From the NCBI GenBank assembly GCA_030595835.1, contig JAUVLG010000019.1, positions 1 through 38,221 on the forward strand: a stretch of 38,221 nucleotides of DNA, read 5' to 3'. Positions 8,762 through 32,099 of the stretch are shown here, piece by piece. The stretch's first letter is position 1. Every line of letters starts with the position of its first letter. The notes beneath the pieces are model-generated. The model did no database searches and had not been told where the DNA came from. It saw nothing but the letters and a program-made list of their open reading frames with translations. A program made the position numbers and the translations under genes. This DNA comes from Candidatus Eiseniibacteriota bacterium (GTDB lineage: Bacteria > Joyebacterota > Joyebacteria > Joyebacterales > Joyebacteraceae).

Positions 8762-9238
8762 ATGTCGACACACGTAACGAAACTTCCTGAGATCGAACGA
8801 CGGCACTACGTCGTCAACGCCGACGGGCAGGTGCTCGGGCGACTGGCGACCAAAGTGGCGTCGGTTCTGAGGGGGAAGGGCAAGACCTACTTCTCGCCAC
8901 ATCTCGACACCGGCGACTACGTCATCATCGTGAACGCTGAGAAGATACAGCTCACTGGCAAGAAGCTCGACCAGAGAACGTACTTCACCCACAGCGGGCA
9001 CCCGGGGGCAGGGAAGTACGTCACCGTGAGGATGATGCTCGAGAAGAAGCCGACCGAGGTCGTGAGACACGCGGTGAAGGGGATGCTTCCCAAGAACAAA
9101 CTTGGGCGCAAGATGATGAAGAAGCTCAGGGTCTACGCCGGTCCGGACCATCCGCACCAGGCCCAGTGCCCCGAGGTTCTGGAGCTCACGGGCGGAATGG
9201 GCAGTTCGACGGTCCATCCGAAAGGAGTCGATGAATGA
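8762..9238 (+). CDS. rplM: 50S ribosomal protein L13
   Basis: L13 is an early-assembling 23S rRNA-binding protein of the large subunit. The 158-residue product has the family features: WHV-like [27 protein letters not shown], then [31 protein letters not shown] and the segment [16 protein letters not shown] 8762 is chosen because a GGAGGG SD lies 7 nt upstream; an in-frame TTG at 8702 lies in the leader. The start overlaps nothing; the stop overlaps the rpsI start (ATGA). The N-terminus is about 15 residues longer than in the shortest homologues. Confidence 0.97.
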
Positions 9239-9624
9239 GTAACACGATTCAGGCGGTCGGCAGGAGGAAGGAATCGATTGCCAGGGTAAGACTTGTGCCG
9301 GGTACCGGGAACAGAACGGTCAACGGCAAGGCGATCGCTGTCTACTTCCCGCGCAAGACCGCGGTCGAGGGTGTACTGAAGCCCTTTGAGTTGACGTCGA
9401 CGGGCGACCGGTACGACGTGCATGCGAGCGTGAACGGTGGGGGCATCAGCGGGCAGGCCGGTGCCGTGCGGTTGGGCATTGCTCGTGCGCTCGTCAAGGT
9501 GGACGAGAGCTACAGGAAGCCTCTGAAGCAGGCCGGACTTCTGACCAGGGACCCGCGGATGAAGGAGCGGAAGAAGCCGGGCCAGAAGGGCGCGCGCAAG
9601 AAGTTCCAGTTCTCGAAGAGGTAG
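9235..9624 (+). CDS. rpsI: 30S ribosomal protein S9
   Basis: S9 sits in the head of the small subunit and its C-terminal tail reaches the P-site tRNA. The 129-residue protein carries [14 protein letters not shown] at the N-terminus, [19 protein letters not shown] in the middle and the basic tail [18 protein letters not shown] ending in the conserved SKR. Its ATG overlaps the L13 stop and has AAAGGAG upstream, the classical rplM-rpsI coupling. Confidence 0.98.
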
Positions 9625-9635
9625 CAGTGGCTGTA

Positions 9636-9659
9636 CCCACACCGACGCTGTGGTGTGGG
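9636..9659 (+). terminator. Hairpin between rpsI and rpsB
   Basis: CCCACACC (9636-9643) and GGTGTGGG (9652-9659) form a perfect 8-bp stem with an 8-nt loop, 12 nt after the rpsI stop. No T-tract follows. It may end the rplM-rpsI transcript, or act as a leader element of rpsB, for which I find no separate promoter in the 153-nt gap. Confidence 0.45.
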
Positions 9660-9777
9660 AATCTCACACGCGGCCGGACCGGCACGGGGGTCCGCGGGCG
9701 GGAAGGACGCCGCTCGTGGCCGGCGCCGGGATGAAGGGCGCGGAGGAACAACCTGTTCACGGAGGTAGAAGCAAGAG

Positions 9778-10542
9778 ATGCCTAAGGCCGATCTGCAAAC
9801 GCTGCTGGAAGCCGGTGTTCACTTCGGACACCAGACGCACCGATGGAATCCCAAGATGAAGCGCTTCATTTTCATGAAGCGCAATGGGATTCACATCATC
9901 GATCTCGCAAAGACGCTGCTCAACCTGGAGAAGGCGCGCGACGCCATCGCGGAGACCGTGAGGCGCGGCGAGTCGATCCTGTTCGTCTGCACGAAGAAGC
10001 AGGGCAGGACCATTGTCCAGGAGGAAGCCGTTCGCTGTGGGATGATGTACGTGACCGAGCGCTGGCTCGGCGGCACACTGACCAACCTCCGCACGATACG
10101 ACAGAGCATCAGGCGCCTCGAGGATGTCGAGCGCATGGCCGAGGATGGCACCTACAATCTCATCTCGAAGAAGGAAATCCTCCAGATCGAGAGAGAGAAG
10201 GCCAAGCTCCTGAAGGTCCTCAACGGAATCCGAACGATGGGTAAGCTCCCCGGTATGGTCTTCATCCTGGACACCCGCAAGGAGCAGATCGCCCAGAGCG
10301 AGGCGAACAAGCTCGGGATCCCGATCGTCGGAATCTGCGACACGAACTCCAATCCCGAGAGGATCGAATTCCCGATCCCGGGCAACGACGACGCGATCAG
10401 GTCGATCAGATTCTTCGCGGCGTTCATTGCTGACACCGTGCTGGAGGTCAGGACGACCTCCCTCGAGGGCGGTGACGCTGTCGAGCCCGCTGCCGTTATG
10501 ACCGGCAGTGAGAGCGGTGAGGCCACGCCTCAGGCTCAGTAG
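9778..10542 (+). CDS. rpsB: 30S ribosomal protein S2
   Basis: S2 is a late-assembling small-subunit protein. The 254-residue sequence has the family signature blocks: LLEAGVHFGHQTHRWNPKM near the N-terminus, GIHIIDLAKTL, RWLGGTLTN and the later VGICDTNSNPERIEFPIPGNDDAIRSIR. The acidic, Ser/Thr/Ala-rich tail (last ~30 residues) is variable in the family. The SD is GGAGGT at 9761-9766. It is followed by tsf, the near-universal rpsB-tsf pairing. Confidence 0.98.
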   Translation: MPKADLQTLLEAGVHFGHQTHRWNPKMKRFIFMKRNGIHIIDLAKTLLNLEKARDAIAETVRRGESILFVCTKKQGRTIVQEEAVRCGMMYVTERWLGGTLTNLRTIRQSIRRLEDVERMAEDGTYNLISKKEILQIEREKAKLLKVLNGIRTMGKLPGMVFILDTRKEQIAQSEANKLGIPIVGICDTNSNPERIEFPIPGNDDAIRSIRFFAAFIADTVLEVRTTSLEGGDAVEPAAVMTGSESGEATPQAQ

Positions 10543-10599
10543 CCGAGCGCACCAGCGCTCTGCGCGTCTCACGTCACACACACATCATTGGAGAACAGA

Positions 10600-11238
10600 A
10601 TGGGCATTTCAGCTGCTCAGGTGAAGGAGCTCCGGCAGAAGACCGGAGCGGGCATGATGGACTGCAAGGCCGCGTTGAACGAGACCGCCGGTGATCTGGA
10701 GAAGGCCGTCGACCACCTCCGCAAGGCGGGGATACTGAAGGCCGCGAAGAGGGCCGAGCGAGCGACGGGCCAGGGGCTCATCGCTTCCTACATACACGCG
10801 GGGTCGAAGCTGGCGGTGCTTGTCGAGATCAACTGCGAGACTGACTTTGTTGCCAAGACCGATCTCTTCAAGACGTTCTCGAAGGACGTCGCCATGCACG
10901 TGGCTGCCCAGAGCCCGTTGGTCGTTCTGAGGGAAGACCTCTCCCAGGACGCGCTCGAGCGGGAGCGGAGCATCTACAAGGAGCAGGCTCTGGCGTCCGG
11001 CAAGCCCGAGAACATCGTCGACAAGATTGTGGAAGGCAAGATAGGGAAGTACTATTCTGAGGTCTGTCTGCTGGAGCAGCCGTTCGTGAAGGACACGGAC
11101 ATCACCGTCGGCGATCTCCTCACGCAGACGATTGCGACCTTGGGCGAGAATATCCGCATCGCGCGCTTCGTCCGGTTGGAGCTGGGCGATACCGCGCCGG
11201 AGGGTCAAGAGGAAGCCTCAGGTGCCTGCTGCGTATAA
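10600..11238 (+). CDS. tsf: Elongation factor Ts
   Basis: EF-Ts recharges EF-Tu by GDP/GTP exchange. The 212-residue protein is the short form, as in Thermus, and not the ~283-residue enterobacterial form. Diagnostic segments are VKELRQKTGAGMMDCKAAL at the N-terminus and CETDFVAKTDLF in the core. ATG 10600 follows GGAG with suitable spacing; a TTG 12 nt upstream is less likely. The last codons overlap the start of pyrH by 17 nt. The tail ends Cys-Cys-Val, which is unusual and may simply reflect the overlap. Confidence 0.96.
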   Translation: MGISAAQVKELRQKTGAGMMDCKAALNETAGDLEKAVDHLRKAGILKAAKRAERATGQGLIASYIHAGSKLAVLVEINCETDFVAKTDLFKTFSKDVAMHVAAQSPLVVLREDLSQDALERERSIYKEQALASGKPENIVDKIVEGKIGKYYSEVCLLEQPFVKDTDITVGDLLTQTIATLGENIRIARFVRLELGDTAPEGQEEASGACCV

Positions 11239-11938
11239 TCGCGTAGTTCTCAAGGTAAGTGGGGAATCTCTGCTGGGCGAGGGTGGCGCACCCGTGTCAC
11301 GTGAAGCCGCCGTGCGACTGGCGACGGAGATCAAGGCCGCCGCGGACGCAGGGGCGGAGTTGGGCGTCGTGATAGGCGGCGGCAACATCCTTCGGGGTAT
11401 CGCCGTGGCCGCCGGTGGGGCCGACCGCGTCGCTTCCGATCTTGCCGGAATGGCGGCGACCCTCGTGAACGGGCTGGTGCTCAGAGACGCGCTTGAGTCG
11501 TTGGGGCAGAAGGCCGTGCTCATGAGCGCGATTCCCTGCGGTCGCATCGCGGAACCTTTCGACCACAGGGTGGCCGACTCCCATCTATCTGAGGGCGCCG
11601 TCGTCATCTTCGGTGCCGGTACGGGTAACCCCTTTTTCAGCACAGATACCGCCGCCGTTCTGCGAGCGGCCGAGATCGGGGCCGACGTGCTCCTCAAGGC
11701 TACGCAGGCCGAGGGCGTTTACGACTCGGACCCCGCCAAGAACCCGGACGCGGTCCGTTTCGCCAGCGTGACCTATCAGGAGATGCTTGAGAAGCGGCTC
11801 ATGGTAATGGACATGACCGCCGTGTCACTGGCTAGGGAACAGGGAGTGCCCCTGGTCGTTTTCGCACTCGCGGTGCCTGGCAACATCGCCAGGGCGGTCG
11901 CGGGAGAGCCGGTGGGAACAACCGTCAAGGGAGGGTGA
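11222..11938 (+). CDS. pyrH: Uridylate (UMP) kinase
   Basis: PyrH phosphorylates UMP to UDP and is the essential hexameric bacterial enzyme of the amino-acid-kinase fold. Motifs are VVLKVSGESL, VVIGGGNILRG, the GTGNPFFSTDTAA nucleotide segment and KATQAEGVYDSDP. GTG 11222 is the best start: GAGGA lies 9-13 nt upstream, and the 238-residue product opens at the family N-terminus. The frame is open further upstream inside tsf but that part is unconserved. A small change from the usual FAGGTGNP to FGAGTGNP is present. Confidence 0.96.
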   Translation: MPAAYNRVVLKVSGESLLGEGGAPVSREAAVRLATEIKAAADAGAELGVVIGGGNILRGIAVAAGGADRVASDLAGMAATLVNGLVLRDALESLGQKAVLMSAIPCGRIAEPFDHRVADSHLSEGAVVIFGAGTGNPFFSTDTAAVLRAAEIGADVLLKATQAEGVYDSDPAKNPDAVRFASVTYQEMLEKRLMVMDMTAVSLAREQGVPLVVFALAVPGNIARAVAGEPVGTTVKGG

Positions 11939-17096: not shown

Positions 17097-17510
17097 CTAC
17101 TCGGTGTCGCCGGTGCCATCGCGGGCCGCGCTTCTGAGTTCGACGATCCTTTTGTCCACCTCTCTCTCGATCTCTACCCACGTCTTCGGACGTGAGCGGA
17201 GCGTCCGGGCGAACTCCTCTACTTCCTCTCGCAAGTGCCCCTTGCTGCCCAGCGCGATCGCCCGTGACGCGGCGTCGTGGCCCGACAACCCTTCCTCGAC
17301 CGCAATTGTGAGAGCGGCTATGTGTGCGACGTAAGCTTCAGCCGTCATTGGCTGCGTGGTGGAGGGCCCCCGCGCAGCCGGGGCGCCGGGTTGCCCGGTC
17401 TCCCCATCAGGTCCGCAACCGCCCGTTATGAGAACGGCGAGCGCGAACGCCGCGGCGATCGTCCGAACGCCCCGCGCCGCTCTTCCTTCGCACGCGCACA
17501 GTCGAATCAC
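17097..17510 (-). CDS. Putative small lipoprotein, function unknown
   Basis: The 137-residue product starts at GTG 17510 with an excellent SD (GGAGG, 8 nt upstream on the minus strand). It opens with a basic stretch, a hydrophobic helix (about residues 17-29) and a Cys at 32 in ITGGC, which resembles a lipobox although Thr at -3 is atypical. A Gly/Pro/Ala linker follows, then a helical, charged C-terminal half. I recognise no family. It is divergent from the 1046-residue peptidase-propeller-barrel protein and shares its promoter region, so a joint role is possible. Confidence 0.65.
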   Translation of the reverse strand: MIRLCACEGRAARGVRTIAAAFALAVLITGGCGPDGETGQPGAPAARGPSTTQPMTAEAYVAHIAALTIAVEEGLSGHDAASRAIALGSKGHLREEVEEFARTLRSRPKTWVEIEREVDKRIVELRSAARDGTGDTE

Positions 17511-17686: not shown

Positions 17687-20600
17687 ATGCGCGGAACGTG
17701 GCGCACGAGAGCCTTAGTCGTCGCCGCTCTGGTCACGGTGAGTATCGTTCCGTCCGACGCGCTCGCAACGCGGTTTGGGCGGAACAAGGTCCAGTACGGC
17801 GCGTTCACCTGGAACATCATCCAGACCGAGCACTTCGATGTCTACTACTACGATGGTTACGAGGACCTTTCGGACGCCGTCTCGATCATAGTCGAGGCCG
17901 CGAACGCTGAGTTCGAGACGCTCCTCGGGCACGAGCTCACGACGGTGATACCGGTCATCATCTACGGATCGCACAACGACTTCCGCCAGACGAACACCTC
18001 CGATTCTGCCATTGGCGAGACCGTCGGGGGATTCATGGAACTCTTCAAGAACAGGGTCGTCGTTCCCTTCACGGGTTCGTACGAGGACCTCCGCCACGTT
18101 CTCTACCACGAACTGACACACGTCTTCATGTTCGACATCATCTACGGCGGGCTCGTCGAGTCCGTTCTCCGGCAGGCCTACACCAACCCCGTCCCGCTGT
18201 GGTTCGTCGAGGGGCTGGCGGAGTACGTCTCCAGGGGATGGGACTCCGAGGCGGAGATGATACTGCGCGACCTCACTCTGTCCGATGCCGTCGTTCCCCT
18301 TCAGTATCTCTGGGGAGGCTATCTCGTCTACAAGGAGGGGCAGTCGGCGCTCTGCTTCATCGCGAGCACGTATGGCCCCGAGAAGATCGAAGAGACGGTC
18401 AAGACACTCGCGAGGACTCACAATCTCGAGCGCGCTCTGACAGAGGCGACCGGGTTCACTACGGTCGAGCTCTCGAAGGAATGGGAGCGTTCGCTCCAGG
18501 AGAGGTATTGGCCCGAGGTGTCCGAGAGGGACCGTGGGGAGGATGTCCTGAGGCTTGTCACCGACCACAAGAAGGACAACTCCTATCTGAACGTGGGTTC
18601 CTCGATCTCGCCTGACGGCCAGAGGGTCGCGTTCATCACTGATCGCAGCGGATACTCGGACGTCTACGTGGCGTCCACGCTGGACGGGACCATCCTCAGC
18701 AAGCTCGTGAAGGGCGAGCGCTCGGACGACTTCGAGACGCTTCACCTGCTTCGCCCCGGGTCTTCATGGTCGCCCGATGGGACCGCGCTGTGCCTGATTG
18801 TCAAGGCCGGCGCGAGTGACGCTCTTCACATCGTCGACGCAGAGACCGGCAAGCTTCGGGCGAGCTTCAGGTTTGCTCTGGACGGTGCGTTCACTCCGTC
18901 GTGGTCTCCGGACGGCGAGCGCATCGCGTTCGTGGGCATAAGCGCCGGGGCCTCCGACCTCTACGTCACTGACGTCGACGGCGGGAATCTCATCCGGCTG
19001 ACCGACGATTTCTTCGACGAGAGAACGCCCGTCTGGTCGCCGGACGGCAGCCTCATAGCCTTCGCCTCGGACCGCGACGCTCCGGTCCGGAGCGACCTGA
19101 GACGCAGCTACGATCTGTACGCCATCGACGTCGATTCGGGGGCCATTGAAACACTCGTGGCGACGGTCGCGAACGAGCACTCGCCAAGCTGGTCGCCCGA
19201 CGGATCCTGGGTGGCCTACGTGTCTGATTCGAGCGGCTCGCCGCAGCTCCACCTGGCCGACCTCCGCGACTCGACGAGCGTGCGTGTGACGCATCTCATC
19301 GGCGGTGTGTCCTCACCGAGTTGGTCGGCAGCCGGGGACCGCATGGCTCTTGGGGTCTACGGTGAGGGAGGGTGGGACATCGCCTCCGTCAAGGCCCCGC
19401 TTGAGGCCTTCGCCGGCGCGATCGCAGATGGGGAGCGAGAGGCGAGGATCGATGGCGCCTACCTCCGCGGCGAGGTGGTCGACGGACCCTGGTTCCCTGC
19501 GGCGTGCGCGGGCGCCGTACACGGACCGCCCGTCGCGGCGGAAGATGAGGCGGACGCCGCCGTGGCCGAGTTGTCCGGGGAGCCGGCGAGCGAGCAGGAG
19601 GGGCGGGTGATGGGACCGGACCCGACGGTCGACGGGCATGATGGCAGCAGTGCCACGGTCGCCAGGGCCAGCGCCGCTTACCGAGCTGCCGTCGAAGCCA
19701 ATGACGGTCCACCAACGCGAGCCGAGCGTCCCGAGCCGGCGGATGAAGACGTCCGCAGTATCGGGTCCGTCGAGAAATACCGACCCCGCTTCACGCCCGA
19801 CTGGATCAGCGGTGGATTCGCCTACACGTCAGGCTACGGTTTCAGCGGCGCGATGCAGATCGCCGTGAGCGACGTGCTTGGCAACCACCGTTTCTACGTC
19901 TCCACCAACTTCTTCTCGGAGATCGAGTCCAGTAACTTCCACGTGCTCTACGAACACCTGGTGCGCAGGGCCAACTTCTCGTTGGCCGTGTACAACTTCA
20001 AGGACTACTACTACTCTGACCGCACGTGGCTCGGCGAGGATCTGGGCGAGAAACGCTACTTCACCGAGCGGAACTACGGTGTGTCGGCCGGAGTCTCGTA
20101 TCCGTTCAGCATGTTCAGCCGCGTTGAGTTCGATCTCTCGGCCATCTCCGTCAGCAGGCAGTTCGCGGAGGTGAACGAGGAGGGGTACCACGAGTTCACG
20201 GACGAGCAGGTCGCGCGATCACTGATAATTCCAAAGGTGCGCTTCGTGAACGACACGACGCTCTGGGGTTCCATCGGTCCTCTGAGCGGCGGCAGGTCCT
20301 CCATTGCGCTGCAGCGGGCCTGGGAATCCGGAGGCGATTTCGCCTACCTGACCGGCATCGCCGACGTGCGAAGGTACATACGGCTGGGCGCCAGACACAG
20401 CATCGCGCTCAAACTCGTCGCGGCGAGGAGCTCGGCGCGCAACGCGCAGAATTTCTACATGGGTGGTGTCAACACAGTGCGAGGGTACGATGACTTTGCC
20501 TTCCACGGCCGGAACCTCGCGCTGGCTTCCTTCGAGTTCCGCTACCCCTTCATCGACCATCTGCAGATCGCTTCGCCCATTCCGCTGTCCCTGTGGGGTC

Positions 20601-20827
20601 TGCGCGGCGTGGCGTTCGTCGACGCCGGCGCCGCGTGGGACGACGACTTCCGCGGAGTCGTCCGGGGCGCGGCCGGCGCCAGGTTGTCGGACATCAAAGC
20701 GAGCCACGGGGTCGGCCTCAGAATGCGGCTCTCGATGTTCATTATTCGCTTCGACTGGGCGTGGCCGAACGACTACCAAAGGACCGGCGACGTCGTGACC
20801 CATTTCGCTTTGGGCGCCGAGTTCTAG
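17687..20827 (+). CDS. Outer-membrane fusion: gluzincin metallopeptidase, TolB-like propeller, Omp85-like barrel
   Basis: The 1046-residue protein has a signal peptide (about 1-27, ending SDALA). Residues 30-300 form a peptidase domain with HELTH at 141-145 and a downstream E175 in WFVEGLAEY, the HExxH...E pattern of gluzincins, closest to the MA-type family. Residues about 300-580 contain at least five TolB/PD40-type blades marked by repeated SPDG (first S308). A low-complexity Glu/Ala/Pro linker spans about 600-700. The C-terminal ~340 residues look like a beta-barrel, with VRGY at 931-934 (the Omp85 loop-6 motif) and a terminal Phe. No POTRA domain is evident. The protein is probably anchored in the outer membrane. 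Whether it displays the peptidase outside or keeps it in the periplasm is unknown. The SD is GGGAGG before ATG 17687. Confidence 0.85.
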   Translation: MRGTWRTRALVVAALVTVSIVPSDALATRFGRNKVQYGAFTWNIIQTEHFDVYYYDGYEDLSDAVSIIVEAANAEFETLLGHELTTVIPVIIYGSHNDFRQTNTSDSAIGETVGGFMELFKNRVVVPFTGSYEDLRHVLYHELTHVFMFDIIYGGLVESVLRQAYTNPVPLWFVEGLAEYVSRGWDSEAEMILRDLTLSDAVVPLQYLWGGYLVYKEGQSALCFIASTYGPEKIEETVKTLARTHNLERALTEATGFTTVELSKEWERSLQERYWPEVSERDRGEDVLRLVTDHKKDNSYLNVGSSISPDGQRVAFITDRSGYSDVYVASTLDGTILSKLVKGERSDDFETLHLLRPGSSWSPDGTALCLIVKAGASDALHIVDAETGKLRASFRFALDGAFTPSWSPDGERIAFVGISAGASDLYVTDVDGGNLIRLTDDFFDERTPVWSPDGSLIAFASDRDAPVRSDLRRSYDLYAIDVDSGAIETLVATVANEHSPSWSPDGSWVAYVSDSSGSPQLHLADLRDSTSVRVTHLIGGVSSPSWSAAGDRMALGVYGEGGWDIASVKAPLEAFAGAIADGEREARIDGAYLRGEVVDGPWFPAACAGAVHGPPVAAEDEADAAVAELSGEPASEQEGRVMGPDPTVDGHDGSSATVARASAAYRAAVEANDGPPTRAERPEPADEDVRSIGSVEKYRPRFTPDWISGGFAYTSGYGFSGAMQIAVSDVLGNHRFYVSTNFFSEIESSNFHVLYEHLVRRANFSLAVYNFKDYYYSDRTWLGEDLGEKRYFTERNYGVSAGVSYPFSMFSRVEFDLSAISVSRQFAEVNEEGYHEFTDEQVARSLIIPKVRFVNDTTLWGSIGPLSGGRSSIALQRAWESGGDFAYLTGIADVRRYIRLGARHSIALKLVAARSSARNAQNFYMGGVNTVRGYDDFAFHGRNLALASFEFRYPFIDHLQIASPIPLSLWGLRGVAFVDAGAAWDDDFRGVVRGAAGARLSDIKASHGVGLRMRLSMFIIRFDWAWPNDYQRTGDVVTHFALGAEF

Positions 20828-27924: not shown

Positions 27925-27994
27925 TGTGTCAGTGGACGTGCGTCAGTGGACATGCGGTAAGGGATGTGCGGTGAGGGATGTGCGGTGACGGACA
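27925..27994 (+). repeat. Five 14-bp degenerate tandem repeats upstream of a promoter
   Basis: Five consecutive 14-nt units start at 27925, 27939, 27953, 27967 and 27981. Units 1-2 share a GTCAGTGGAC core; units 3-4 share TGCGGTRAGGGATG; unit 5 mixes both (TGCGGTGACGGACA). The array ends 10 nt before the -35 box of the GH57 promoter. The location is compatible with an operator array for an activator, but the units may also be a neutral minisatellite. Confidence 0.8.
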
Positions 27995-28004
27995 CACCAG
28001 TTCA

Positions 28005-28033
28005 TTGACCACCCGCCGATTCTGTGGTATAAT
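28005..28033 (+). promoter_or_regulatory. Sigma70-type promoter for the GH57-like gene
   Basis: TTGACC at 28005-28010 is followed by 17 nt and a perfect TATAAT at 28028-28033. The predicted start near 28040 leaves a leader of about 58 nt before ATG 28098. Confidence 0.88.
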
Positions 28034-28097
28034 GCGAATTATCGGATGTTTCTCTGCCTGTCAGCTCGCTGGGAAGGCCCAGCGGAAGGGGATTGGT

Positions 28098-31000
28098 ATG
28101 TCTCTGGTCAGAACGGTCTCACGATCGTGGCTCCTGCTCTCGGTTCTCACCGCGGCGGCGGCAGCCATGCTCTGTGTCGCACCCGCGTTCGCACTGCTTC
28201 CCATCGAGGCCGATGGCTTCCTCAAGAACTACGAGGCGATCAACTGCAAGGCCATAGACGCTATCTACGACGACGCCGATGCCGTCGGGCACGCGGGCGA
28301 CATCATGGCCTTCTACGCCGACCAGGGCGAGGACAGATTGGTCTTCCGCGTCGGCATGTTCATGATGGAGATGATCGACGGGAGTGGTGACTGCTTCAGA
28401 CGGGCGGGGACTCGCATTTACGTGTTCGCGGACTATGAGGATGGCGGGACGATGGCGATGCCCGATCGTCTGGCGCGGCGGGTGCCCATCATGTGGGACA
28501 CGTGTGTCCGACTGGGGTACGGGGAGAGGGGAGCGTTCGAGGAGAAGGTGTTCGGCGCCGATCTTCGCGAGGTTTCGCGGGAGCTCGTTCGCGCGTCGGC
28601 CGTAGTGCCGGAGCTGCACACGCTCGAGGGTTCGATCCGGCTGCCTGACGGATTCCGGGCCGCGGTCACCAGGGCGGCCGGCGTCGGTGAGGAGGACTAC
28701 GATCTCATCGCCGCGGCCGTGTCGGCCGAAGAAGCGACCCCCGTCCGATACCACGTCGTGGCCGTCATCGACGGGGAGGTCGTCGACGAGCTGTCCGCGA
28801 CCAACGAGCCCAGGCGCGGCGACCACAACGTCGCGTTCGCGCAGCACGGCAACCAGGGGCTGACATACACCACGGTCTACTGGGGAGAGAAGGGTGAGAA
28901 CGCGTCGTACCCCGGCGACCCGGCCAACCCGGACGACGGATTCGATGAGATCCTCGATGCGCACGACTACTACGACCTGCCGGGCAACTTCCACATGGCG
29001 GGGACGCTTATCACGGGTGCTGCGTGGCACGACCCGGCCTTCAACGACTCGCTCGTGAACGGCGTGGGCGAGGGTTGGGTTCAGATGCTGACGTCGGCGT
29101 ACGCCCAGCACATCATGCCGTTCGTCTACGACGACATGAACAGCTGGTCCGTCAACGTCCACAGGCAGCTGACCAACCACTACTACGGCCAGTGGCCGAC
29201 CGTCGCCTGGGTACCTGAGCGCGTCTGGCTCGAGAACCCCGACTCCGACGGCAACGGCATCGACGCCTCCTGTTGCGTTATCGACAATACGATCAAGGAC
29301 GACTTCTACGACAACGATGTCGACGCAGTCATTCTCGACGACTACGTGCACTGCGGCTACATGAACGACTACCTGAACGACCACCACGTCTACGTGCTGG
29401 ACAACGGGCTCAAGATCCTGCCCATGGACAACGACTTCAACGGGCAGATGGGCTACGACGCCGGCGCCGCGATGTCGACCATATGGGCGGGGACGTCGGA
29501 TGAGATAATCCTCTACGGCAACGACTGGGAGGTCGCGGCCGAGGTTGCCGGGTTCGACATCACGCACCCCTCCGCGCTCAACAACTACATCTACGTTCTG
29601 CAGCAGTGCAGCACGTATTCCGACGTGATCAGTGTGTGGAAGCTCAACGACGTCATCTCGAGCTTCCCCGCTACCCCCATCACGCTGCAGAACGGGACCT
29701 ACGGGCTGCTCGGTGAGTGGTACGGCTACGGCGGCTCCTGCAACCAGTGGTACTGCGACTGGGCCAGCTACGTGGGGGAGGACAACCTCGATGAGCACAC
29801 TCCGAAGTGGGGCTACCAGGGCGCCTGGCAGTTCGCGCACGACAAGATCGTCGCCGGACCCAGCAACGACCTCTCGGAGTCCGCGTGGTATGTGATGATG
29901 TCGATGCTGCACGAGACGGGCTGGCACGACGCCGGCGAGATCGCCGGCTGGGAGCACCGCTACTCCAATCACATCAAGAACGCCAATCCCTACTCGGAGG
30001 CCGCCCTCTGGGCGGAGGATCTGGGGACGTACGCGTCGAACCCCACCGGTTGCTCGCTGTGGGACATCGACGAGGACGGTGTCCCTGAGGGCGTCATCTG
30101 GAACGACCGTGTGATGGCGGTGTTCGAGATGATCGGCGGCAAGGCCAACTGGATCTTCGCCAAGGGCTCGGGCTACGGCTACTCAGTCGTGGGCAACGAT
30201 AACGTCTACTGGGCCGGGACCGCCGGTGACTGGAACGAGACCAACCACACCGCGGCCCTCTCGGACGTCAGCGTGGGCGGCATCGACCGAGAGCACGACT
30301 ACTACTACCTCTCGGTTCTCTCGTCCGATGGCAACACCGTCACCCTCGAGATCGGGCACAACGACGTCCCGATCGTGAAGACGGTGAGCCTGACTCTCGG
30401 CGACCCGTACCTGGATGTCATCTACGACGTGGGCGGCGAGACGGCCTACATCAAGAGCGGCTGGACGCCGGACCTCGTCGATCTTATCTGGGATCCGGAG
30501 CTCTATCGTGTGTGGGACCCCGGCACCGGCAGCTACTGCGGGCAGCGCAATACGTCCAGCGGCGCGACCGCTGCGCTCGTCCTGGGTGCCGGCGGGACCA
30601 GCCACAACGTGGCTCAGACCGCGACGCTGCTCGAGATCGACGAGATCGTCGGCACCGGCCAGTTCCAGTTCTACATCTACGCGGGTTACACCGGCGCGCC
30701 CGTGTCAGACGAGATCGCCGAGCTCGAGGCGCTGTCCGCCGGGCTCACGGACGTGCTCGCACCTAGACCCGTCGTGGCCAACTACTACCCGAGTGCCGAT
30801 CGCCTGGACATCACGTTCAACGAGATCGTGCAGTACGACGCCGTGACGACCACGGGTGTTGCGATCGACGAGAACAATGACGGCGTGGCGGAGGTTACGC
30901 TCACCGGCGCCGCGACCGTCCTCAACGCGGGCGACGCGACCGTCATCCAGATCCAGGTTGCCGCGGCCACGGCGGCCGCGATCGAGGTCCTGACGCCCGG

Positions 31001-32099
31001 CACGCTCGAGCTTCTGCTTGCGGCGGATTCCTTCTTCGACGTGGTCGGGAACGGCAACGGGGCGGTCGATAACACCGACGACGTGAGGGTCATTTACGGC
31101 GCCGATACGAAGATCACGATCGATGGGCTGATCGATGCGTCCGAATGGGCGCCCTACACGCTCGTGGTCGATGACCCCGACGATGACTCGACATGGCACC
31201 CCGTCGATCCCCTTCTCAACGAGCTCTACGGGCTCTACGTCGACTGGGACGCCGACTTCCTGTATCTCGGCGTGAACGGGCAGGTTGTGTCGAACAGCTG
31301 GCTCCTCTATCTGGACACCGACCCCGGCGGACCCGGTGGAGAGACGGACCTCACCGCCATCGACGCCTGGGAACGCGGCGCTACGTTCAGCGCGTCAGGC
31401 TTCAGGGCCGACTTCCAGTACGGCTGCTACCAGCACCAGGGCGCGTATGACTCCGATAGCTTCTTCTCGATCGACAGCCCGACGACAGCGACCGCGCTGA
31501 CCGACTCGATAATCTCGGCCTTCGATTCGCAGCACGTTAACGGGACGAGCGGCGGGAGCGAGATGGCCATCCCATGGCACGTTCTCTACGGGATGGGACC
31601 GGGGAACGTGCCAGTGAACGCGTCCTTCTCGCTGGTCGCGTCCATCTGTTGGGACCCCGACCCCGACGGCGAGCTCGGCGGGGACTCCGCGCCGTCGAAC
31701 AGCTCGGCCGCGCTGCCCGTGATCGATGCCGCGTACACCATTACAATAGACCACGACGGCGACGGCCTGCCGGACGAGGGCGCCACGGGAGCCGAAGGGG
31801 GTGACGCGGTCGTCGCGCGGAGCTTCCTCAAGCAGAACAGTCCCAACCCGTTCAACCCGGCGACGCGGATCTCGTTCGTCGTTGGCGGGTGTGTGTCCGC
31901 CGACGTTCTGCTGGAGATCTTCGATGTCCGCGGCGCGCGCGTCGCGACGCTCGTGGACGCTTCCCACGAGCCGGGCGAGCACGCCGTCAGCTGGGACGGT
32001 CACGACTCGCGGGGGAGGAGTCTGGCGTCGGGCGTCTACTTCGCGAAGCTCACGGTGGGCGAGGGAACCGATGCGGCAAAGATGATCATGCTCAAGTGA
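28098..32099 (+). CDS. Secreted GH57-like glycoside hydrolase with DOMON/CBM-like and FlgD-like sorting domains
   Basis: The 1333-residue protein starts at ATG 28098 behind GGAAGGGG. It has a signal peptide (about 1-34, ending APAFA). Residues about 225-640 look like a GH57 alpha-glucan hydrolase: WVPERVW at 371-377 matches the WLPE-type motif and HETGWHD starts at H605, as in amylopullulanase-type members. A beta-sandwich region follows, then a DOMON/CBM9-like domain from about 1010 (ITIDGLIDASEW, LYVDWDADFLYLGVNG). The C-terminal ~90 residues (from S1242, NSPNPFNPATRISF) are a FlgD-like/type IX-like sorting domain. Substrate is unproven; starch or glycogen-type glucan is the family expectation. 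The first ~190 mature residues match nothing I recognise. Confidence 0.8.
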   Translation: MSLVRTVSRSWLLLSVLTAAAAAMLCVAPAFALLPIEADGFLKNYEAINCKAIDAIYDDADAVGHAGDIMAFYADQGEDRLVFRVGMFMMEMIDGSGDCFRRAGTRIYVFADYEDGGTMAMPDRLARRVPIMWDTCVRLGYGERGAFEEKVFGADLREVSRELVRASAVVPELHTLEGSIRLPDGFRAAVTRAAGVGEEDYDLIAAAVSAEEATPVRYHVVAVIDGEVVDELSATNEPRRGDHNVAFAQHGNQGLTYTTVYWGEKGENASYPGDPANPDDGFDEILDAHDYYDLPGNFHMAGTLITGAAWHDPAFNDSLVNGVGEGWVQMLTSAYAQHIMPFVYDDMNSWSVNVHRQLTNHYYGQWPTVAWVPERVWLENPDSDGNGIDASCCVIDNTIKDDFYDNDVDAVILDDYVHCGYMNDYLNDHHVYVLDNGLKILPMDNDFNGQMGYDAGAAMSTIWAGTSDEIILYGNDWEVAAEVAGFDITHPSALNNYIYVLQQCSTYSDVISVWKLNDVISSFPATPITLQNGTYGLLGEWYGYGGSCNQWYCDWASYVGEDNLDEHTPKWGYQGAWQFAHDKIVAGPSNDLSESAWYVMMSMLHETGWHDAGEIAGWEHRYSNHIKNANPYSEAALWAEDLGTYASNPTGCSLWDIDEDGVPEGVIWNDRVMAVFEMIGGKANWIFAKGSGYGYSVVGNDNVYWAGTAGDWNETNHTAALSDVSVGGIDREHDYYYLSVLSSDGNTVTLEIGHNDVPIVKTVSLTLGDPYLDVIYDVGGETAYIKSGWTPDLVDLIWDPELYRVWDPGTGSYCGQRNTSSGATAALVLGAGGTSHNVAQTATLLEIDEIVGTGQFQFYIYAGYTGAPVSDEIAELEALSAGLTDVLAPRPVVANYYPSADRLDITFNEIVQYDAVTTTGVAIDENNDGVAEVTLTGAATVLNAGDATVIQIQVAAATAAAIEVLTPGTLELLLAADSFFDVVGNGNGAVDNTDDVRVIYGADTKITIDGLIDASEWAPYTLVVDDPDDDSTWHPVDPLLNELYGLYVDWDADFLYLGVNGQVVSNSWLLYLDTDPGGPGGETDLTAIDAWERGATFSASGFRADFQYGCYQHQGAYDSDSFFSIDSPTTATALTDSIISAFDSQHVNGTSGGSEMAIPWHVLYGMGPGNVPVNASFSLVASICWDPDPDGELGGDSAPSNSSAALPVIDAAYTITIDHDGDGLPDEGATGAEGGDAVVARSFLKQNSPNPFNPATRISFVVGGCVSADVLLEIFDVRGARVATLVDASHEPGEHAVSWDGHDSRGRSLASGVYFAKLTVGEGTDAAKMIMLK

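Follow-up and report, generated by a model that had tools for sequence, protein, structure and literature searches.

What kind of protein is encoded by the gene at positions 17,687 to 20,827 of the window, by which we mean the whole stretch of 38,221 nucleotides analysed here, and what would a member of Candidatus Eiseniibacteriota use it for? The sequence-only reading of this locus had proposed that a gluzincin peptidase, a TolB-like propeller and an Omp85-like barrel are joined in one chain, and had pointed to a signal peptide, a HELTH motif with a downstream Glu, a disordered linker, a VRGY motif and a terminal Phe. All of these have been located, and it is confirmed that one reading frame joins the signal peptide, the gluzincin peptidase, the TolB-like propeller and the Omp85 barrel, laid out as follows.

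17687..20827, + strand: whole gene, peptidase–propeller–Omp85 barrel protein of 1046 aa (open reading frame and translation; full-length relatives at 26–85% identity)
17687..17767, + strand: predicted signal peptide, residues 1–27 (hydrophobic N-terminus, then a conserved FGRNKVQY; conservation low before residue 26)
17768..18550, + strand: predicted gluzincin peptidase domain, residues 28–288 (Peptidase_MA_2; modelled fold)
18107..18121, + strand: HELTH, predicted zinc-binding motif, residues 141–145
18209..18211, + strand: E175, putative third zinc ligand, in a WFxEG(L/M)AEY motif
18329..18331, + strand: Y215, candidate catalytic tyrosine
18584..19396, + strand: six-bladed TolB-like beta-propeller, residues 300–570
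19397..19777, + strand: disordered variable linker without POTRA, residues 571–697
19778..20824, + strand: Omp85 16-stranded barrel, residues 698–1046
20480..20488, + strand: RGY motif of loop L6, residues 932–934
20822..20824, + strand: C-terminal Phe, of the BAM recognition signal type

This three-part architecture is well supported, with Pfam, AlphaFold2 (AF2) and Foldseek in agreement to a degree far beyond chance. Pfam searches of the 1046-aa protein return Peptidase_MA_2 (32.9 bits, cut-off 32.4), PD40 (E 8e-30) and Omp85 (PF01103, E 2.5e-18, residues 772–1046), and give no match to POTRA, patatin or M48 domains or to TPR repeats; NCBIfam adds partial TolB and BamA matches, both under cut-off. 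The AF2 model, built with 67 homologs, has a mean pLDDT of 83.7 and a pTM of 0.83. An alpha+beta domain occupies residues ~28–288, with HELTH on a helix of residues 132–153 and E175 on a helix of residues 171–182, followed by six blades at residues ~300–570 (counted by eye on the DSSP string), a disordered stretch at residues 590–687 with pLDDT mostly <50, and 16 main barrel strands at residues 702–1042 (also counted by eye), as had been anticipated for the C-terminal segment. The RG at residues 932–933 falls between strands 11 and 12, which is the L6 position of Omp85 proteins. When the full model was searched with Foldseek, TolB was the best match for the propeller (E 2.5e-12) and the barrel matched BamA and TamA (E 3e-11 to about 1e-9).

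The same layout is found well beyond this contig. From a scan of genomes 80 related loci were retained, whose record titles name Eisenbacteria, Latescibacterota, Balneolales, Rhodothermales, Gemmatimonadetes, Ignavibacteriales, Bacteroidetes and Acidobacteria. Residues H141, E142, H145 and E175 are identical in 79 of the 79 sequences covering these positions (E179 in 78), and Y215 is invariant among 67 aligned relatives. The expected gluzincin signature is thus supported, in that a predicted zinc site of H141, H145 and E175, with E142 as the putative catalytic residue, appears intact. At the other end of the chain, 65/67 homologs finish with Phe, and the arginine and glycine of L6 are conserved at 90% and 100%, respectively. 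Among 44 members scanned with Pfam, PD40 was matched in 44/44, Omp85 in 31/44 and Peptidase_MA_2 in 30/44; members that escaped one or other model nevertheless align at full length and carry the invariant residues, and so look divergent and not domain-less. A survey of how often the three parts co-occur, for which two match lists were compared by hand, found ~22 frames in 14 genomes that match both the family profile (propeller part) and Omp85, all of which also cover the peptidase segment.

As modelled, the peptidase domain is a gluzincin fold of the M9-collagenase-like kind. Modelled alone it reaches a pLDDT of 87.4, and its top Foldseek matches are the peptidase domains of M9 collagenases (E 6e-6), followed by the M1 and M61 aminopeptidases; a profile search agrees with this (M9, E 2e-4). 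In the printed alignment the glutamate of WFxEG and Y215 fall on the corresponding residues of the collagenase WWSEG(V/I)AEY and YRWG motifs, and the residue aligned with Y215 is an alanine in entry 9l5o, titled mutant Y549A. The M9 peptidase domains of ColG, ColH, ColT and the Vibrio collagenases are therefore the best match by both fold and profile, with aligned ligands and tyrosine, but those enzymes are secreted, share 12–18% identity in Foldseek and have neither a TolB propeller nor a barrel. The protein lies below the Pfam gathering score of the M9 collagenase family proper: PF01752 gives no Pfam match to it at E up to 10, and weak matches in 24/51 domain rows (best E 4e-7).

Which known Omp85 proteins does this chain resemble? 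Type Vd autotransporters had been suggested as the closest known logic, and a self-anchoring protease at the surface or in the periplasm had been proposed. PlpD, the patatin-Omp85 protein of this type, likewise has an exported enzyme domain ahead of a C-terminal Omp85 barrel, but that domain is a patatin lipase and is accompanied by one POTRA, both of which are absent here. Membership of type Vd was rejected on the Pfam results and because the patatin domain of PlpD, which is a dimer, is periplasmic (PMC11116518); surface display by this route is a weak analogy for the present protein. The type Vd comparison also gives way to a closer one, since a POTRA-less subfamily joining a propeller to Omp85 has already been published (PMC4104836). 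A self-anchored protease is still plausible.

The absence of POTRA, by comparison, has been borne out. The linker ranges from 37 to 225 aa across 67 homologs with conservation of 0.12–0.24 over most of its length, so a cryptic POTRA within it was rejected, and none appears among the 25 families listed, out of 27, for the 44 scanned members. These features bear on whether the barrel might carry the peptidase and propeller across to the cell exterior, as was first proposed for type Vd. The related barrels FhaC and CdiB secrete proteins, and even the shortest linkers, at 37 aa, could still span a barrel. Here, however, a POTRA that could hand a passenger to the barrel is missing, confidence in the modelled linker is low, and the conservation of the family is of a housekeeping type; with the PlpD passenger itself periplasmic, we consider a surface-displayed autotransporter protease unlikely.

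The closer comparison comes from Heinz and Lithgow, who defined ten Omp85/TpsB subfamilies in 2014, among them WD40-Omp85, with a C-terminal Omp85 barrel, an N-terminal TolB-like propeller and no POTRA (PMC4104836). A PF01103 barrel of 16 strands, a TolB-like propeller and the lack of POTRA are all seen here, so that by the subfamily's published features the protein is a probable member. The difference is the peptidase, as the main text of PMC4104836 mentions no such domain in WD40-Omp85 proteins. The same paper defines a metalloprotease-Omp85 ('Metallo') subfamily, a name that suggests an Omp85 protease, by PF00149; in the family library used here PF00149 is Metallophos, a different family that is absent from this protein. 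Both the metalloprotease and the WD40-like groups were still described as not well characterised in 2024 (PMC11116518). The expectation that novelty would lie in function and not in architecture was about right.

WD40-Omp85 proteins were proposed to act as a BamA-BamB-like platform (PMC4104836), and one could read the present protein chiefly as such an assembly platform or insertase, a fusion in which proteolysis is secondary. An Omp85 barrel with the L6 RG motif next to a propeller fits this published hypothesis, as does a BamB-like neighbour gene in one clade (below), but the lack of POTRA and the separate BamA of the organism do not, and a minor part for catalysis would not readily account for the invariance of every catalytic residue; we regard this, too, as improbable. 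The genome of the organism holds further Omp85 genes, including that separate BamA, with five POTRA domains, beside lpx-like genes on contig C168. Its presence there led us to reject the idea that the gene, by virtue of its slot after rseP, is the organism's BamA. This BamA also adjoins a 1346-aa ORF, and TamA-like Omp85 genes on contigs C68 (L108) and C172 (L109) each stand beside a long, possibly TamB-like ORF (1469 and 1139 aa). Contig G000:C110 has Omp85 and POTRA matches and, judged by GLVLSGGGARGAAHAGV starts, encodes two patatin-like Omp85 (PlpD-type) proteins on the minus strand (L111:3250-5481 and 9042-11258).

Within the window the order of genes is uppS-cdsA-dxr-rseP-[gene]-pcrA/uvrD-amidase(gatA)-gatB, with rseP and pcrA read from sequence, and the order from uppS to gatB is the same in Eisenbacteria relatives. 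The slot after rseP is the place of bamA in E. coli. Between rseP and the gene lies a 137-aa lipoprotein-like ORF (LITGGC; 17097-17510, minus strand) with no Pfam match, whose cluster is present in 12 loci. Further along the window, at 27978-32099, a 1373-aa protein combines a GH57 glycoside hydrolase domain with a C-terminal FlgD_ig domain, and an arylsulfotransferase-like gene lies upstream of it. In Gemmatimonadota the context is L9-DegV/Dak2-RsfS-[gene]-SPOR-SMC, and in Balneolia DUF748 and RNase R lie upstream of the gene, in that order. Five loci of the Balneolota group (L029, L030, L032, L054 and L056) have a T9SS plug-domain gene directly downstream on the opposite strand (PF17116 in L029).

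In ten loci of a Rhodothermia/Ignavibacteria/Bacteroidetes clade, the gene that comes next, touching or overlapping this one, encodes a PQQ_2 (BamB-type) propeller, in most cases with a lipobox-like Cys close to the N-terminus. In 7/10 (L060, L065, L066, L070, L073, L074 and L075) its start as called gives an overlap of 4–17 nt with the end of the main gene; the exact start codons of these genes are uncertain, the calls in L057 and L069 are clearly too early, and the gene is split in L072. Nine of the ten loci fall within one ten-row clade of the tree, from which L072 was left out, the exception inside the clade being L071.

The family is near-universal in three of the lineages sampled. It was found in 14/15 genomes of the same phylum, in 60/61 of Gemmatimonadota (the phylum of Gemmatimonadetes locus L055) and in 40/40 of the class holding Rhodothermia and Balneolales (taken from Balneolaceae locus L029), mostly at 1–3 copies per genome; in Acidobacteriota (the phylum of Vicinamibacterales locus L079) it is patchy, at 11/60. 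These prevalence samples cover four lineages, with other phyla outside their reach. The genome of the same phylum that lacks it, G012, is complete; the propeller part is matched there only weakly and the peptidase part not at all, so the gene is not indispensable in that phylum.

A form that shares the peptidase and propeller but lacks the barrel is encoded on the Salinibacter ruber plasmid pSR116 (L113:5932-7833, annotated as basic secretory protein-like), from which it follows that these two parts can exist alone; the notion that the next gene supplies a barrel was rejected, as it encodes an S10 carboxypeptidase. Genes near this form include those of a TonB-dependent receptor and a serine carboxypeptidase, and the fold resembles collagenases and aminopeptidases, as might be expected of a nutritional or scavenging enzyme that breaks down peptides at the outer membrane. 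Against this, copies on chromosomes have housekeeping genes as neighbours and whole lineages carry them almost without exception, and we think a nutritional role very improbable.

Our preferred explanation, to which we give a probability of roughly 0.45, is that the protein is a zinc metallopeptidase which anchors itself in the outer membrane and takes part in the assembly or quality control of outer-membrane proteins. A role as a zinc peptidase is argued for by the catalytic residues invariant in 79/79 sequences across phyla, by the invariant Y215 and by the M9/M1 fold match. A near-universal gene, mostly in 1–3 copies in three lineages, is probably a housekeeping protease for outer-membrane maintenance, unlike an accessory weapon, and the housekeeping gene contexts, the separate true BamA and the BamB-like gene in one clade point to assembly or quality control. 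BAM would insert the barrel into the outer membrane, with the peptidase and propeller suspended from it by a flexible tether on the periplasmic side; the propeller may then serve as a recognition module that captures client or partner proteins, and the peptidase may remove misassembled or stalled envelope proteins. Sequence and model show the architecture, including export signal and flexible tether, and the catalytic residues, whereas the periplasm-facing location, peptidase activity, substrate and link to BAM are our inference; the periplasmic placing is in line with PlpD, the closest studied enzyme-Omp85 protein (PMC11116518).

Such a role would be similar to that of BepA, a periplasmic zinc peptidase of E. 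coli that helps to assemble outer-membrane proteins and to control their quality (PMC8423444), except that the present protein would bring its own membrane anchor. The single M48 match in the genome of the organism looks like HtpX, so that the search revealed no enzyme of BepA type there, and this favours a BepA-like role. The likeness is one of functional analogy: BepA is a soluble M48 and TPR protein without propeller or barrel, whereas the present protein has an M9-like peptidase and a propeller, and this difference counts against the comparison. The preferred explanation is further weakened by gene neighbours that differ between phyla, by the confinement of the BamB-like gene to one clade and by the absence of the gene from G012. 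A bolder version is possible, though we hold it as doubtful, in which the protein is a conserved quality-control protease with its own anchor, at the core of the outer-membrane assembly machinery in Gemmatimonadota, Rhodothermota/Balneolota and Eisenbacteria and partnered in one clade by a BamB-like lipoprotein, as an Omp85 protein that destroys its clients in place of inserting them.

No published description of a peptidase–propeller–barrel protein was found in the main texts of the open-licence literature, and the peptidase domain appears to have gone unrecognised in the papers found, which noted only the propeller and barrel. Those main texts lack both the conserved domain of apparently catalytic type and the predicted BamB-like neighbour gene. 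In several understudied phyla, an envelope gene that is near-universal carries a protease domain, intact as judged by its signature, that is absent from the published accounts found, while the one 'metalloprotease-Omp85' label that turned up in the literature is based on a domain of the phosphoesterase type. If active, the protein would be an Omp85-anchored metallopeptidase, and the reading of WD40-Omp85 proteins would shift from passive platforms to enzymes.
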